DNA of 30,307 bases from a virus. Positions 6,823 through 12,270 of the stretch are shown here, in pieces (within the stretch, counting starts at the first letter, position 1; every line of letters begins with the position of its first letter). Under the pieces are notes generated by a model. That model worked only from the letters and a program-made list of their open reading frames with translations. It was not told the DNA's origin and made no database searches. Where the stretch lies: the IMG/VR virus record IMGVR_UViG_3300043419_001215, positions 1 through 30,307 of that record; one strand, given 5' to 3'. The position numbers and the translations under genes are program-made.

Positions 6823-9800
6823 TTACGCCACGTTAGCAGTTCGCCACCAAAAACCATCCAAGAATGTAAATGTACTTGAACCATTTGGATCAGAAGCCGC
6901 AATATTGACTGTTCTTGATGCGCCGTTTATTTTTCCTCTTAGTACAAGATATCTAGGTCTAGTATCTAGCGCATTACCGTAATTTCCTCTGTCTAACATT
7001 ATAATAGTTTTCATTTGACCTTGAGTACCGTCATTCATAAATGCGTAGGCTAATGCCGCTGAATCGTCTACCCAGTTTAGTGTTCTAACAAATGTAACAG
7101 GTGTTGTGACTGGAATTTCTATTTCTAATGAGTTGGCTGCTACTTCAACAATATTAGAACCTGTAATAAACAGTCTGCTGTTTGTTGTTAATTTTAAATC
7201 ACCACCAGTAACAATAATAGAACCACCGCTACTACCAGGTACAAGATTTATATTGTTACCTGTTACTGTTTGTTGTATTTCATTATTAGTAATATTAATA
7301 TTACCAGCTCTTGTTACATTTGATGTGATTGTTCCTGAAACAGGCAAATTACCACTAACAGAAACACCAGATATTGTTGATTTTAAACTTATCTGTACAC
7401 CGTTAACTGTAGTAGATGTATTAATATTTGTACTGCCAGATATTGTAACAGTTGCGCCCTTAATGACAGTTAAATTGCCACCAGAATCTCCTGTTAATGG
7501 GAAACTTTGTAAACTTGCATTGTAAACAGAACTTGTTTGATCATCAACATATTTCTTAGAAGTTGCATCACTATTATCTGTTGGCACAGTTAACGGCAAG
7601 TTAGTAATCTTTTTACCACTAACATCAATTGATGTGCCTGGACTTAAAATTAATTTTCCAGAAGATGATAAAGTTTGATCACCAGTTCCAGTTAAATTAA
7701 TGAAGCCAGCAGATAAGGTAGTTGTGGTAATTATGTCATTAGTTGATGAAATGACAGAAGCAGTTTCTACTCTGCTGTTAAATGTGACTGCTGTATCAGC
7801 ACTATTCTTTTCTATTGTTGTTACTTTTAATGAAGCCGCTTCAATACCACCAGCACCTGTTCTTTTAACTAATGTTCCAGCAACATTTGTACTGGATTCA
7901 TAAATGTTTAAAACACCGCCAGTATAATCTAACGATGTGCCAGGAGTAACAGAAATTGCACTTCTAGCTCTTGCATTAGTAAAATATAAATTTGTATCTT
8001 CACCAATGTCAGCAGTGGTTAATGTCACATTCTGTGTGCCATTAAAATTCTTTCCGTTAATAGTTCTAGTTGTTTGTAAGGCAGTAGCAGTACTCGCATT
8101 ACCAGTCACGTTACCTGTTACGTTACCAGTTAATGAAGCTGTAATTGAATTAACAAATTCAATTCCAGATAAATCATTTTTAATGACAAGTATTTTACCA
8201 CCATCACCTGGCAAGTAAGCATTAGGCGTGTCTAGTAAACCAAGTAACGTACTGACTCCACCGCCACCGCCACCTCCGCCAAAACTAGGTGTAACCCATT
8301 CTAATAAATTGTTCGGGTTAATACCGTCTGGAACTCTAACTTGTAGTACTTGGCCAGGGGCACCAATGTCTTGAGGAAAACTATAACCGCCAATAGCAGA
8401 TCCGCCTGCATTAGAATCTAAGTAACCTCCATAGAAATTAATGTAGGTGTCTGGCTTCTCTGTCAATAAGATTAAGTCATTGTTAGATGGTTCTTCAAAT
8501 GTACCAGTGTTATTAATAACTTGGTAAGGTTTGATTGAAGAATTTCTAATTTCAATGCCGTTACCAATAGTAACTCTGCCATTTCCTCTAGCTTTAATAA
8601 CGTCTAAGAAATAAGGAGTGCTTGGCGACACTTGTTCTCTTCGTACTCTAGCAACAAACGTACTATAAACGTCTTGTCCAAAATTTGGATACTGGTCATA
8701 CTCTAAATGATTTAAAACACCAATAAATCCATGTAATCGGTATTCAGGCAGAGTTGGTATGTTTAACGGATCATATCCTGGCAAATCTGGATCAATTACG
8801 TTAACAGATTCAAAAGCAATGCCTGTTCCAGATGGAATTGCTTGACTAGAGTTGTTAACTGTTGAGCGTAATCTTAATGATTCAGAAAGACCAAAACTCT
8901 GTTGTCTCATTGTTAAGATTGTCGCTCCGCCCAAGTCTGTTATGGTTGGGACATCTGTTTCTAATATTAGTTGGTCTGGATAATAATTTGAATTAGCAAC
9001 TAGCGGTGATGTGCTATCAGCTGACGTAACACTGATTGTACCAATACCAAATATATCTTGTTCGTTTAAATTTAAACCACCAGACACTAATGTTGCAGTT
9101 AGCCCACCGCTGAAAGTTCCAACATGAGAGCCTGTAATGGTTGCAGGACTAGTAGCAGTGTTGACAACTACTGTATCAGGTACTCCTAGTCCCCTAATGG
9201 CAACGTTACCGTAGTGTGTACCTGTAGAATTTCCTGCTAATGATCCTACAAACCCGTTTCCAGTTGCGTTGAAAATAGGTGCTGTAATTGAAGTAGAAGC
9301 GTTAACGGTTGTTGCTGTGACACCTGCAAGAATCGTTCCTGCTTTTACAGTTAATGTTCCGTTTAATAATGTTGAGCTTGGAAAATTGCCAGGACCACTA
9401 CTGCGTCCAACAGTTAAATTATCTGTTAAGATTGATCCGTTGTGGTTAATGTTTCCAAACCCAGTTATATTAGAGCCTGCTAAATTTAAGTTGCCACCAA
9501 GTTCAGGAAGTAAATCAGTTGATAAACTAAAACTACCGTTGATAGTTAATTCGCTACCAACAATTTGTGTTGATATCGAACCTTCACCACGTATAGTCAA
9601 TGTGGAGTTAGGACTTGAAATAGGGTAAACGCCGTTATCGGCAGAAACAGTTGTAATATTGGGCTGTGCAGTGACTGTTGATGTTAATCTAATTACATTG
9701 CCATCTTGCGTTAGTGCTATGCCTGCACCTGCTGCCAATGTCCTAAAATTCAGTACTTCATTAGTCTTACCAATATAAAATTGTCCAGAACCACCGCCTA

Positions 9801-9939
9801 AATTAGCGCCAAAGTTAGTTTCTCCGCCTATAGTTGCAAGTAATTGAAAGTTATCATTTACTTTTAAGAAGGCGGATCGCAGGTCATCGCCAGTGCCATC
9901 GTTAGGATTTATGCCAATATTTACGTACTGAATGCTCAT
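6823..9939 (-). CDS. Long tail-fibre-like protein with GNAST/TINGxxFNGT and NLYFTNARA modules (1038 aa)
   Basis: The N-terminus has the fibre head module VNIGINPNDGTGDDLRSAF followed by LKVNDNFQLL (residues 5-34). A long repetitive beta region follows (NLNLAGSNITGFGNINHNGS, around residues 150-170). Gly554-561 is an eight-glycine run that looks like a hinge. After it come classic fibre-shaft phrases: TGNVTGNVTGNASTATALQ with RTINGKNFNGTQNVTL (about 603-640), TNLYFTNARARSAIS (about 643-657), and KKITNLPLTVPTDNSDATSK with KYVDDQ (about 770-800). The C-terminal ~70 residues (WVDDSAALAYAFMNDGTQGQ...) form a separate small domain. Such modules build trimeric fibres in T4-like phages. The gene starts the left part of the minus-strand block, with an AGGAACGAG site before its ATG, and diverges from the plus-strand pair. 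Which fibre it forms cannot be told. Confidence 0.8.
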   Translation of the reverse strand: MSIQYVNIGINPNDGTGDDLRSAFLKVNDNFQLLATIGGETNFGANLGGGSGQFYIGKTNEVLNFRTLAAGAGIALTQDGNVIRLTSTVTAQPNITTVSADNGVYPISSPNSTLTIRGEGSISTQIVGSELTINGSFSLSTDLLPELGGNLNLAGSNITGFGNINHNGSILTDNLTVGRSSGPGNFPSSTLLNGTLTVKAGTILAGVTATTVNASTSITAPIFNATGNGFVGSLAGNSTGTHYGNVAIRGLGVPDTVVVNTATSPATITGSHVGTFSGGLTATLVSGGLNLNEQDIFGIGTISVTSADSTSPLVANSNYYPDQLILETDVPTITDLGGATILTMRQQSFGLSESLRLRSTVNNSSQAIPSGTGIAFESVNVIDPDLPGYDPLNIPTLPEYRLHGFIGVLNHLEYDQYPNFGQDVYSTFVARVRREQVSPSTPYFLDVIKARGNGRVTIGNGIEIRNSSIKPYQVINNTGTFEEPSNNDLILLTEKPDTYINFYGGYLDSNAGGSAIGGYSFPQDIGAPGQVLQVRVPDGINPNNLLEWVTPSFGGGGGGGGVSTLLGLLDTPNAYLPGDGGKILVIKNDLSGIEFVNSITASLTGNVTGNVTGNASTATALQTTRTINGKNFNGTQNVTLTTADIGEDTNLYFTNARARSAISVTPGTSLDYTGGVLNIYESSTNVAGTLVKRTGAGGIEAASLKVTTIEKNSADTAVTFNSRVETASVISSTNDIITTTTLSAGFINLTGTGDQTLSSSGKLILSPGTSIDVSGKKITNLPLTVPTDNSDATSKKYVDDQTSSVYNASLQSFPLTGDSGGNLTVIKGATVTISGSTNINTSTTVNGVQISLKSTISGVSVSGNLPVSGTITSNVTRAGNINITNNEIQQTVTGNNINLVPGSSGGSIIVTGGDLKLTTNSRLFITGSNIVEVAANSLEIEIPVTTPVTFVRTLNWVDDSAALAYAFMNDGTQGQMKTIIMLDRGNYGNALDTRPRYLVLRGKINGASRTVNIAASDPNGSSTFTFLDGFWWRTANVA

Positions 9940-10019
9940 TTCTCGTTCCTATTTCTAGTATTTACCACTTTATAGATTAAGCGTGAATTGCTCTGTTTTA
10001 TATATTTACCCAATATTTG
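9940..10019. promoter_or_regulatory. Divergent intergenic region with candidate T4-type late boxes
   Basis: This 80-base gap separates the leftward 1038-aa fibre gene from the rightward enzyme pair, so it should hold promoters in both directions. On the minus strand GGTAAATACTAG (9966-9955) resembles the T4-type late box TATAAATACTA, and CTATAAAG (9975-9968) is a weaker second match. The first lies only about 15 bases before the ATG, which would give a very short leader. On the plus strand only AT-rich TATATATTT-like strings are seen, with no convincing -35 and no Shine-Dalgarno for the first gene. Confidence 0.35.
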
Positions 10020-10487
10020 ATGTTAAATACCCTGATGGATATACACGCAGATAAAGATTTTTGGACCAATTTAAAGTGGCCCGCCGCCCCTAACGATGCG
10101 GATTATTCAGTATTTGAAAGCTACTGTACAGGGCGTGTTTTACTTCTAGGTAGTACTAAACTGCTTCTTCCACTAGCTACAGAGGCATGGGACTTGGAAC
10201 CAAAATATGCAGACGATAAAATTAAGCATAAAGACTGGTTTACATTAGACGAGCATTGGGACACAATTATAGTGGACGGCGCATTGGCATTGGGTGAAGA
10301 ATACTGTAAAACACTTTTGCCCATAGTCTTAAAACATTGCGACAGATTTGTCGCCCGAGCCTTCTTAAATCCTAATTGGCCCACAAAGTATGCTGTGTAC
10401 TTTCCCCGTGCTGAAGAATTGAATCCAGTGCCACAAGAACACCCTATTAACGAAGTTTACACATTTTATATATGGAACAACAAATAA
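10020..10487 (+). CDS. Small Rossmann-fold, class I methyltransferase-like protein
   Basis: The protein is 155 aa from the ATG at 10020; a TTG at 10017 and an ATG at 10035 are other possible starts, and none has a clear Shine-Dalgarno. The order of elements fits a class I SAM-dependent methyltransferase core. A hydrophobic strand and loop RVLLLGSTKLLLPLA (about residues 39-53) sits where motif I would be. WDLEPKYAD has an acidic position at the end of strand 2. HWDTIIVDGALAL (about 80-92) resembles motif IV, followed by a helix and the strand CDRFVARAF. The glycine loop is atypical (GSTK rather than GxGxG), and the protein is short, with no target-recognition domain. Activity is therefore uncertain, and it could be a binding-only relative. 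Its end overlaps the QueC-like gene by 16 bases, implying a shared transcript and coupled translation. Confidence 0.6.
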   Translation: MLNTLMDIHADKDFWTNLKWPAAPNDADYSVFESYCTGRVLLLGSTKLLLPLATEAWDLEPKYADDKIKHKDWFTLDEHWDTIIVDGALALGEEYCKTLLPIVLKHCDRFVARAFLNPNWPTKYAVYFPRAEELNPVPQEHPINEVYTFYIWNNK

Positions 10488-11062
10488 TATTAGCCATGTA
10501 CTCGGGCGGTTTAGACAGCTTGGGTATGATATACAAGCTACTTACAGATCCTGAGTACAAGGACTATAAGTTACACATACATCACATACATAATCGTAAT
10601 ATAGAAAATAGAGATAAGGCTGAAGCTATTATAGTAGAAAAAGTATTAGTAGAACTAGAGAGGTTAGGGTTTAGTTTTGTCTACAGTGAAAGTCAAATAG
10701 CCAGTCAGCCCTACAACGGCAAATTTATGTATGATACAGACAGCATTAACTTCTTTGCTGGATATATTTGTAGTGCGAACCCTAATATTGTAAAAGTCGC
10801 CATGGGTATGCAGGCAAATGATTATAATATAGCACTTGAAGATAGGCGTAAACGTGCTGATGCTATATTAGCGGCATTTACAGACGTGGGTAAAATTTAT
10901 CCTGTACTAGAAATGACTAAACGTGAGATATATGACAGTTTGCCAGAATCATTAAGAGATATGTTTTGGTCGTGTCGCAAGCCAGTGTACACAGAAAAAA
11001 ATATCGCACCTTGTGGACGGTGCGATACTTGTGTTAAGTTAAAAGAACAAGGGATCCGTTAA
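10472..11062 (+). CDS. QueC-like PP-loop ATPase (7-cyano-7-deazaguanine synthase family)
   Basis: This 196-aa protein starts with a strand leading into the PP-loop SGGLDS (residues 11-16), which in this family binds ATP to adenylate a carboxylate. Near the C-terminus Cys168, Cys181, Cys184 and Cys187 (WSCRKP, then PCGRCDTCVKL) form the C-x12-C-x2-C-x2-C zinc site typical of QueC. QueC converts 7-carboxy-7-deazaguanine to preQ0, a precursor of queuosine and of deazaguanine DNA modifications that shield some phages from restriction. It is shorter than bacterial QueC (about 220-230 aa). The start at 10472 is preferred over the ATG at 10496, because the latter would cut the first beta strand. No FolE, QueD, QueE or DpdA-like transglycosylase gene is in the window, so the substrate is open and a diverged PP-loop ligase is possible. 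Its stop overlaps the convergent 403-aa gene by four bases. Confidence 0.75.
   Translation: MEQQIILAMYSGGLDSLGMIYKLLTDPEYKDYKLHIHHIHNRNIENRDKAEAIIVEKVLVELERLGFSFVYSESQIASQPYNGKFMYDTDSINFFAGYICSANPNIVKVAMGMQANDYNIALEDRRKRADAILAAFTDVGKIYPVLEMTKREIYDSLPESLRDMFWSCRKPVYTEKNIAPCGRCDTCVKLKEQGIR
10995..11027 (-). terminator. Intrinsic terminator for the leftward fibre transcript, inside the QueC-like gene
   Basis: Read on the minus strand, TATCGCACC (11027-11019) pairs perfectly with GGTGCGATA (11010-11002) across an 8-base loop, and seven T residues follow at once (11001-10995). The hairpin begins 32 bases past the stop of the 403-aa gene, the last gene of its leftward run. On the plus strand it is followed by no T-run, so it should act on leftward transcripts only. 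The same bases encode residues 177-186 of the QueC-like protein, including two zinc-site cysteines. Confidence 0.8.
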
Positions 11063-12270
11063 GGCAATCCGTAGGTAGTTTTAAGTGAATTATAACTTGT
11101 TTGGATAGCAGTAGCATCTAAGGCTGTACTATTGTTTATATTATGGTAGAAGTAAGTACCTGGACAAGGATCATTAGTTCCAATGCCATTATTTTGGTGT
11201 CTAGCACCAATTAGTAGTATGTTGCCAGCAGGCAATGGTTGTACATAACCGGTTGAATCTGGAGTTACGAGTACACCATTTTTATAAACACTTATGCCCA
11301 TGCCGTTTTCATGTGTAAATGCCCAGTGTGTTCTGGATCCAATGTTGGCTACAGTATAATTGTTTACTCCAAGTGGCGACCCAACTGCCAAATTAGTAGT
11401 ACTATTAAAATAAGCAAAGTGTCCGCTAGCGGTATCGTAAATTTCGTTGCCCCATAAAGTAGCCCAGAATTGTGTTGGAGCTACTTCAGCAATGATTTCT
11501 ACAGTCCAACTATAGCCTAGTGATAACGTTGTGTTGATAACTGCTGGTCTAAATCTATTCACCGTACTAGAATATGTTGATCCAATAAAATAATCAGCAA
11601 TACTCAAGTAACCAACTTTACCTTGAAAGGCATTGCTAGTAATCATGTTGGCAGTATCGGCAATACCAATGCCAAAATATTCAGTAGTAGGTCCTGGCCC
11701 TTGTCTAATGTATGTTGGCAAGCCTGTAGTAGCCACACCATTTAATTCAAATGTATGATTGCCGTTAACTTCCTCAGCAAAGTAAATGTGGTTCCATTGA
11801 TGTAATGTTACAGTATTAGTTGATATAAAACTTTGTGTGCCGGCACCATTCCAAAATCTAGCTCTGATATAATTATTACTGTCTATTTCTAACACGCTAT
11901 AATGATAACTTGAAAGGCCATTATTTTGCTGGTCCATCTCATTCATTATCTGACAATTGTTAGCAGTAGGCCAGAACCACAAGTTAATAGCAATAGCATT
12001 AGTTTGCCAAGCATTGCCGTAGCCTATGTTTGTACTGATCATCCACTCTGTGCCAGTAAAGTTGCGAGTCTTACCTGTGTAACTTCCATCTCGATAAGTG
12101 TAACTTGGATTTGCTGGGGCAGGGTCAGAATAAACTGAGTTAGCACCTGTGCCGCCAAATGCGTACCAACTATCGTTGTCGCCAGACCAGAAAAACTCAG
12201 CAGGTGTTGGAGGCGGAGTTCCGCCGCCTCCTGTACTGATACTTGCTATTAGACCTTGAATAATTGTCAT
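11059..12270 (-). CDS. Double LamG/concanavalin-like lectin protein, probable fibre tip (403 aa)
   Basis: After a short leader and a GGGGTPPPTP linker (residues 14-23) come two similar beta-sandwich domains of the LamG/concanavalin A-like type. The first (about 70-220) contains AIAINLWFWPTAN, SVLEIDSNNYIRARFWNG and the hallmark WNHIYFAEEVNGNHTFELNG. The second (about 250-400) contains SWTVEIIAEVAP, THWAFTHENGMGISVYKNG and GNILLIGARH. The W-x-H-(I/A)-x-F followed by a 'yvNG' strand is characteristic of Laminin_G_3-type sugar-binding domains. There is no signal peptide. The gene is the last of the leftward run from the right, 1 base after the 1381-aa gene, and is followed by an intrinsic terminator. 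Such domains at phage fibre ends typically bind host glycans; that role is inferred, and structural decoration of the virion is the alternative. Confidence 0.75.
   Translation of the reverse strand: MTIIQGLIASISTGGGGTPPPTPAEFFWSGDNDSWYAFGGTGANSVYSDPAPANPSYTYRDGSYTGKTRNFTGTEWMISTNIGYGNAWQTNAIAINLWFWPTANNCQIMNEMDQQNNGLSSYHYSVLEIDSNNYIRARFWNGAGTQSFISTNTVTLHQWNHIYFAEEVNGNHTFELNGVATTGLPTYIRQGPGPTTEYFGIGIADTANMITSNAFQGKVGYLSIADYFIGSTYSSTVNRFRPAVINTTLSLGYSWTVEIIAEVAPTQFWATLWGNEIYDTASGHFAYFNSTTNLAVGSPLGVNNYTVANIGSRTHWAFTHENGMGISVYKNGVLVTPDSTGYVQPLPAGNILLIGARHQNNGIGTNDPCPGTYFYHNINNSTALDATAIQTSYNSLKTTYGLP
12209..12231 (-). other. GC-rich hairpin in the early codons of the 403-aa gene
   Basis: GGAGGCGG (12209-12216) is complementary to CCGCCTCC (12224-12231), with 7 bases between, giving an 8-bp mostly G-C stem. 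It lies about 40 bases into the coding region, over the Gly4-Thr-Pro3 linker. Gly codons (GGN) followed by Pro codons (CCN) make such hairpins naturally, so a regulatory role is not implied. It lacks a following T-run. Confidence 0.55.

Follow-up and report, generated by a model that had tools for sequence, protein, structure and literature searches.

The locus studied here raises the question of what a methyltransferase-like gene and a QueC-like gene, set side by side in reversed orientation, are doing among the structural genes of a phage. The window analysed is the whole of IMG/VR record IMGVR_UViG_3300043419_001215 (30,307 bases), and its content consists of structural genes on the minus strand together with a single gene pair on the plus strand.

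The gene pair and its locus

Gene 1 (10035..10487, plus strand) encodes a protein of 150 aa with a predicted class I SAM-methyltransferase fold and a degenerate motif I, VLLLGST. Gene 2 (10472..11062, plus strand) encodes a QueC-like PP-loop protein of 196 aa, with an SGGLDS loop and a putative zinc site made up of C168, C181, C184 and C187. The initial annotation had described the two as overlapping by 16 bases and as the only plus-strand genes, running against minus-strand fibre genes, and both descriptions are borne out. The 16-nt overlap (10472..10487, plus strand) is likely to entail translational coupling, and gene 1 and gene 2 are the sole credible plus-strand genes of the window, because the other long plus-strand reading frame (144-884, TTG start) overlies minus-strand genes having family matches. 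The start of gene 1, placed earlier at 10020, is best read as the ATG at 10035, since a TAAATA (10024-10029) separates it from the upstream ATG and most homologues begin at the 10035 position; a start at 10020 would put this promoter-like element inside the gene. To the left and divergent from gene 1 is a minus-strand gene (6823..9939) for a large structural or fibre-like protein of 1038 aa without a match in Pfam, for which a TAAATA read from the sequence (9959..9964, minus strand) is a candidate late promoter that would fit an ordinary leader. To the right, a convergent minus-strand gene without family match (11059..12270, 403 aa, cluster c4) shares with gene 2 a 4-nt overlap of stop codons (TTAA, 11059..11062), and the same overlap with a convergent gene recurs in the majority of loci. 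Elsewhere on the minus strand of the window, a 172-aa protein (923-1441) situated within the structural cluster matches phrog_11127 'DNA polymerase' (5e-46) and a Pol III alpha NTPase domain, its cluster c7 being present in 21 loci, and a GroES/Cpn10-like protein (224-595; phrog_931, head morphogenesis) is possibly a gp31-type co-chaperonin.

In IMG/VR, both genes were recovered together at 220 loci, a figure that counts many contigs repeatedly; distinct cassettes defined at 97% nucleotide identity number 60. These cassettes, located on contigs of up to 355 kb, keep the same gene order and overlap, the latter amounting to 13, 16, 19, 22 or 25 nt (steps of 3 nt) in 59 of the 60; the exception, L087, has gene 1 mostly deleted and gene 2 intact. 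Phage homologues of both proteins are mostly 57-86% identical to those of the window, and pN/pS is ~0.25 for each gene, with synonymous change near saturation. The retained order and overlap, the invariant SGGLDS loop and four cysteines, and the pN/pS together establish the gene pair as a real unit, as opposed to chance reading frames, and the co-occurrence across cassettes upholds the earlier suggestion that it travels as one. At three loci (L087, L214 and L223) gene 2 is present but a whole gene 1 is not; the converse was seen only where a contig ends (L085). On this basis gene 1 seems to need gene 2, and not the reverse. The pair is found among unrelated genes in only some relatives, and in L065 (693-1477) and L066 both genes are broken, by a stop codon in gene 1 and by truncation of gene 2 after residue 95. 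Taken together with its reversed orientation and the own late promoter discussed below, this agrees with the moron-like behaviour suggested at the outset. Several of the larger contigs that carry the pair or gene 2 encode gp23-type major capsid proteins, which places them among T4-like phages. In the isolated phages searched, gene 1 was found in none and gene 2 is represented only by distant relatives; a partial literature search retrieved no earlier description of such a gene pair.

An octamer resembling T4-type late promoters, GTTAAATA (10022..10029, plus strand; core TAAATA at 10024-10029), lies 5 nt before the gene-1 ATG; the T4 consensus is TATAAATA, which contains the core TAAATA (PMC3014915). 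The core ends 4-8 nt upstream of the gene-1 ATG in 46 of 47 distinct cassettes, compared to 32 of 430 control genes from the same loci with a TAAATA 1-8 nt upstream of the ATG. A T4 late promoter placed like this would set the start of the transcript at about the gene-1 ATG. From this geometry, the gene-1 transcript is predicted to be leaderless, or nearly so, and we infer that the cassette constitutes a late, self-contained expression unit. The minority of control genes having a close TAAATA suggests that these phages may use near-leaderless late transcripts more widely.

The surroundings of the pair are constant in kind and variable in identity. Opposite-strand orientation holds for the left neighbour in 56 of 57 loci and for the right neighbour in 52 of 53, the context consists of structural genes in nearly all loci, and the neighbours are spread over many protein clusters, with no structural partner protein common to all loci. 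Similar cassette sequences adjoin unrelated left flanks. The similarities of gene 1 and gene 2 correlate weakly (0.32), and the left flank is tracked more closely by gene 1 (0.32) than by gene 2 (0.11), both of which point to recombination inside the pair as frequent; it would explain most of the correlation pattern. Given such recombination and the unrelated flanks, a shuffling of fibre genes around the pair is as fair a reading as movement of the pair itself. Co-evolution of gene 2 with the right-hand fibre gene is unsupported (rho 0.22, compared to 0.20 for gene 1). Collagen-like repeats, considered as a common substrate, were dismissed, being present in only 4 of 110 neighbours.

The two proteins and their probable chemistry

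Gene 1 has no match in Pfam or PHROG. Its AlphaFold2 model (pLDDT 91.8) gave a fold search in which 970 of 1000 chains reached Z ≥ 5, with SAM methyltransferases in the top rows and many SAM- or SAH-bound enzymes among the matches. By VIA-align, the model aligned over its whole length with DhpI (Z 13.7, rmsd 3.0, 147 residues aligned, 13% identity), among other methyltransferases. As far as the model can tell, gene 1 represents a minimal class I SAM-methyltransferase fold, consistent with the methyltransferase-like fold proposed initially. Compared to DhpI-type methyltransferases, it is ~50-100 residues shorter and lacks the glycine-rich motif I: instead of GxGxG, the protein has VLLLGST, in which loop only G39 is invariant, and any SAM binding would have to do without the usual motif. 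Further invariant residues are D53, which follows the second strand, and D81-G82, which follow the third, and the gene-1 proteins start with M[D/N/S]I. Gene 1 could conceivably have become a catalytically dead partner that retains the methyltransferase fold for binding the substrate or regulating gene 2, a possibility compatible with the other explanations, to which we give rather less than even weight. It would suit the degenerate motif I, the length of just 150 aa and the occurrence only together with gene 2; it is opposed by the invariant D53 and D81-G82, which fit SAM-site positions, and by the many SAM- and SAH-bound enzymes among the fold matches. The idea that gene 1 is a split-off N-terminal domain of QatC, which arose from the β-α N-terminal extension of that protein, was abandoned as the fold search returned SAM methyltransferases; QatC was absent among the matches listed, an absence that excludes nothing.

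Gene 2 scores 22.6 bits with the Pfam QueC model (cut-off 22 bits) and matches phrog_1550 (7.6e-16); it reaches 18.6 bits with NCBIfam TIGR00364 (cut-off 150.3) and 11.7 bits with the Qat model NF041925 (cut-off 280). On its N-terminal part, TilS-type lysidine synthetase models score about equal to QueC models. The AlphaFold2 model (pLDDT 92.0) aligns best with Cap9 (Z 16.8, 169 residues aligned, 19% identity), followed by B. subtilis QueC (14.9), YcfA (14.3) and ThiI (13.9), and its matches include LarE-type ATP-dependent enzymes; Z values within 1 are ties, so that only Cap9 is clearly ahead. A PDB sequence search with a phage-only gene-2 profile gave no matches, and weak ones only were obtained after bacterial relatives had been added (Cap9 0.016, MesJ/TilS 0.016, QueC 0.092). 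Loop SGGLDS and four cysteines are invariant in 49 gene-2 sequences. The cysteines are spaced C(x)12CxxCxxC, compared to C(x)8CxxCxxC in the canonical QueC zinc motif, and the C-terminus bearing them aligns with that of E. coli QueC. On sequence and model evidence, gene 2 is understood as a divergent QueC-family PP-loop, four-cysteine protein, and to this extent its first description as a QueC-like PP-loop protein is retained.

The same description had linked gene 2 to the preQ0-making function of QueC, and here the evidence points the other way. QueC enzymes are characterized by the signature motifs YxQxHxxE, VPxRN and YPDC, and residues Y35, R99 and Y131 are essential in E. coli QueC (PMC13329287). 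In the alignments available, gene 2 presents at these places HxHHxH..N.E.R, YDTD and a segment lacking YPDC. For the first motif the register is uncertain, with neither its Y nor its Q found in either register. An alignment of the diverse gene-2 subfamily lacks conserved stretches. Because the published signature motifs are absent, synthesis of preQ0 by gene 2 is unlikely, in keeping with a TIGR00364 score far below its cut-off, and a QueC label on such genes is not to be annotated as queuosine biosynthesis. With the ATP loop and the four cysteines invariant, and the substrate motifs of QueC replaced, gene 2 is likely to activate an acid or carbonyl at the expense of ATP, its substrate being something other than CDG bound in the manner of QueC and Cap9.

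Proposed modification of virion proteins and its alternatives

Distant relatives of gene 2 in actinophages lie directly among tail genes. Mycobacteriophage Muddy gp16 (hhalign 6.4e-17) is encoded right behind the major tail protein gene, and in Saccharomonospora phage PIS 136 a major tail protein (phrog_792), a QueC-like ExsB and a RimK-like ATP-grasp ligase (phrog_2599) follow one another, an order that ORF reading also shows on contig L361, which has a 67% relative. The PIS 136 segment (L242:5164-7442) and that of L361 (3148-5439) are each a candidate tail-protein modification operon. Profile comparison places Muddy gp16 and PIS 136 ExsB in the gene-2 subfamily (HHx(6)ExR, W.CR.P, C..C.TC). 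The Muddy-type and PIS 136-type major tail proteins are not similar; the two actinophage groups are unrelated, and the association of gene 2 with tail genes is independent in them. Unlike gene 2 of the window, these relatives are co-directional with the tail genes and have no gene-1 homologue seen beside them, the place of gene 1 being taken in PIS 136 by the ATP-grasp ligase gene. A gene for a 2OG-Fe(II) oxygenase lies ahead of the pair in L068, and a relative 77% identical to it lies ahead of a solitary gene 2 in L214. A gene-2 relative in L223 (675-1307; 60% identical) stands by itself, surrounded by tRNA-like sequences and with desaturase-like genes some kb away. In bacteria, relatives of 37-42% identity are single chromosomal genes of deltaproteobacterial, gammaproteobacterial and other assemblies, and a family of this sort may have been the source of the phage gene 2. 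In the bacterial neighbourhoods gene 1 is absent, tail genes are not adjacent and no function is indicated; in L224-L227 the bacterial genes closely follow or overlap what we take, from reading the sequence, to be a DUF849-like gene, with presumed hydrogenase maturation genes near some of them.

Our preferred interpretation, at a probability of roughly 0.4, is modification of tail or fibre proteins by the pair, acting as a late moron in uncultured large T4-like phages. The pair would be made late, alongside the virion proteins; gene 2 would adenylate a carboxyl or carbonyl group at the expense of ATP and form an amide-type (or thio) bond, either directly on a tail or fibre protein or on a small group that such a protein receives afterwards; and gene 1 would tailor the gene-2 product or assist in its formation. 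The preference derives mainly from guilt by association, in that modifying enzymes adjoin tail genes in separate phage groups. A precedent exists in the use of the QueC fold for protein N-terminal conjugation, reported for Cap9 and proposed for QatC (PMC11996544, PMC13279940). Evidence against is that gene 1 lacks the usual GxGxG, that the neighbouring fibre proteins show no conserved N-terminal glycine, that no structural partner protein is common to all loci, that the bacterial relatives occur singly, without gene 1 and away from tail genes, and that gene 2 tracks the right-hand fibre gene no closer than gene 1 does. Were virion modification confirmed, phages of several unrelated groups would be using the QueC scaffold on their own side, and the pair would offer a case of enzymatic tail-protein modification that is testable by mass spectrometry.

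An alternative to which we assign perhaps half that weight considers the pair as a moron for superinfection exclusion, anti-defence or host takeover, which would alter a receptor, tRNA or metabolite of the host late in infection, its insertion in the fibre region being merely tolerated. The own promoter, the reversed orientation, the presence or absence among relatives, the decay in L065 and L066 and the variable flanks all accord with it, as does the near-equal match of TilS-type models to the N-terminal part of gene 2. Yet the subfamily adjoins major tail protein genes in unrelated phages, as a host-directed gene need not, and PADLOC shows no defence partner, its hits being mainly the QueC model and weak others.

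Rated slightly lower is a role in 7-deazaguanine chemistry, in which gene 2 would act on CDG supplied by phage FolE, QueD and QueE so as to yield, in free form, a modified base destined for DNA or tRNA, with methylation by gene 1. The first reading of the locus had noted FolE, QueD, QueE and DpdA as absent. That holds for the 30-kb record, which has no FolE, QueD or QueE; it does not extend to the larger relatives, since among 26 larger contigs carrying the pair or gene 2, FolE was found in 10, a PTPS/QueD-family protein in 15 and QueE in 8. All three occur together in 5 of the 6 contigs above 200 kb, away from the pair in those genomes. None of the 26 contigs showed a canonical QueC, which would leave the terminal enzyme missing; this, the FolE, QueD and QueE counts and the QueC fold of gene 2 speak for the proposal. 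TGT (PF01702) was detected in 0 of the 26 contigs and 9g-type DpdA (phrog_887; phage 9g as positive control) in 0 of 30, the contigs being possibly incomplete in both counts. These absences are unfavourable to the proposal, and so are the loss in gene 2 of the CDG-recognising Y and D of YPDC, of the VPxRN loop and of YxQxHxxE, and the expectation that a base pathway would be neither late-only nor placed among fibre genes. QueE, moreover, needs no pair: it was located at no fewer than 577 places in the wider phage lineage, and 14 contigs with QueE (45-356 kb) revealed neither gene 2, in a search there without a positive control, nor QueC. These 14 contigs are why the pathway provides no evidence on the function of the pair; up to CDG it is a lineage trait that says little about the pair and is not its partner. 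A complete preQ0/DpdA set elsewhere in the genome, of which gene 2 might have been a displaced member, was looked for and rejected, with canonical QueC, TGT and 9g-type DpdA all undetected in the larger relatives and QueE contigs existing without gene 2. Additional QueC matches in G006 and G009 (306-320 aa) turned out to be other PP-loop proteins, and G005 and G009 each have a second QueC-like protein, which is non-canonical.

The large T4-like phages merit a remark of their own. In G001-G005, G008, G010 and others (e.g., L260, L262 and L264), FolE and QueE are closely spaced, only a few kb apart, with PTPS located elsewhere. In L262, the one case scanned, the FolE/QueE operon also holds phosphoribosyltransferase, cysteine-dioxygenase-like, IMPDH/GMP reductase, HIT and FkbM methyltransferase genes. 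The pathway seems to stop at CDG, because QueC and DpdA were undetected.

A canonical, preQ0-making QueC that complements the queuosine pathway of the host is scarcely credible: the Pfam score barely above threshold and the alignable four-cysteine C-terminus speak for it, whereas the TIGR00364 score and the replacement of the essential Y35, R99 and Y131 in the alignments available lead us to discard a preQ0 or queuosine role.

Relation to QueC, Cap9 and Qat

In CBASS immunity, recent work showed that the QueC scaffold conjugates a nucleobase to a protein, and something similar has been proposed for Qat. With canonical QueC, gene 2 shares the fold (Z 14.9 to 3bl5), the PP-loop and the C-terminal cysteines; it differs in the loss of the substrate-site motifs and in neighbours that are mostly structural genes and not queD or queE. 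A more specific form of virion-protein modification would make the pair a viral counterpart of Cap9 and QatC, with a QueC-family ligase attaching a small group (possibly CDG or a related acid made by the phage) to tail or fibre proteins, and with a methyltransferase-fold, ATP-grasp or 2OG-oxygenase partner to tailor it. We hold this narrower proposal to be improbable as it stands; if true, such virion decoration would be of an undescribed kind. A strictly Cap9-like, glycine-dependent modification, whether of gene 1 or of fibre N-termini, was rejected, the neighbouring fibre proteins showing no conserved N-terminal glycine of the sort found in Cap9 and QatC substrates.

In type IV CBASS, the QueC-like enzyme Cap9 deazaguanylates the N-terminus of its CD-NTase (PMC11996544). 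Cap9 is the closest solved structure to gene 2, resembling it in small size, in the SGGxDS loop, in the Cys4 site and in having an adjacent partner gene. Cap9 retains Y/FxQ(x)5E and YxDC (motif from PMC13329287), whereas gene 2 has neither. The partners likewise differ: that of gene 2 is a methyltransferase fold starting with M[D/N/S]I, that of Cap9 a CD-NTase with MGG, and no start of the form MG[GTS][STG] occurs among the ORFs of the loci. Cap9 belongs to a defence operon, gene 2 to the late genes of a phage. QatC combines a QueC-type core with the loss of the CDG-recognition residues, and QatB-QatC is a two-gene minimum (PMC13279940). Gene 2 has lost these residues too, and both are part of two-gene units; at 196 aa, compared to ~400 aa, gene 2 is without the N- and C-terminal extensions of QatC, and the Rossmann-type methyltransferase fold of gene 1 contrasts with the all-helical QatB. 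Judged by gene order, no qatA, qatB or qatD was recognised at the loci, and PADLOC on the window member reported the QueC model only. What the pair adds to these systems is a new subfamily and a new pairing inside a known and already repurposed QueC scaffold.
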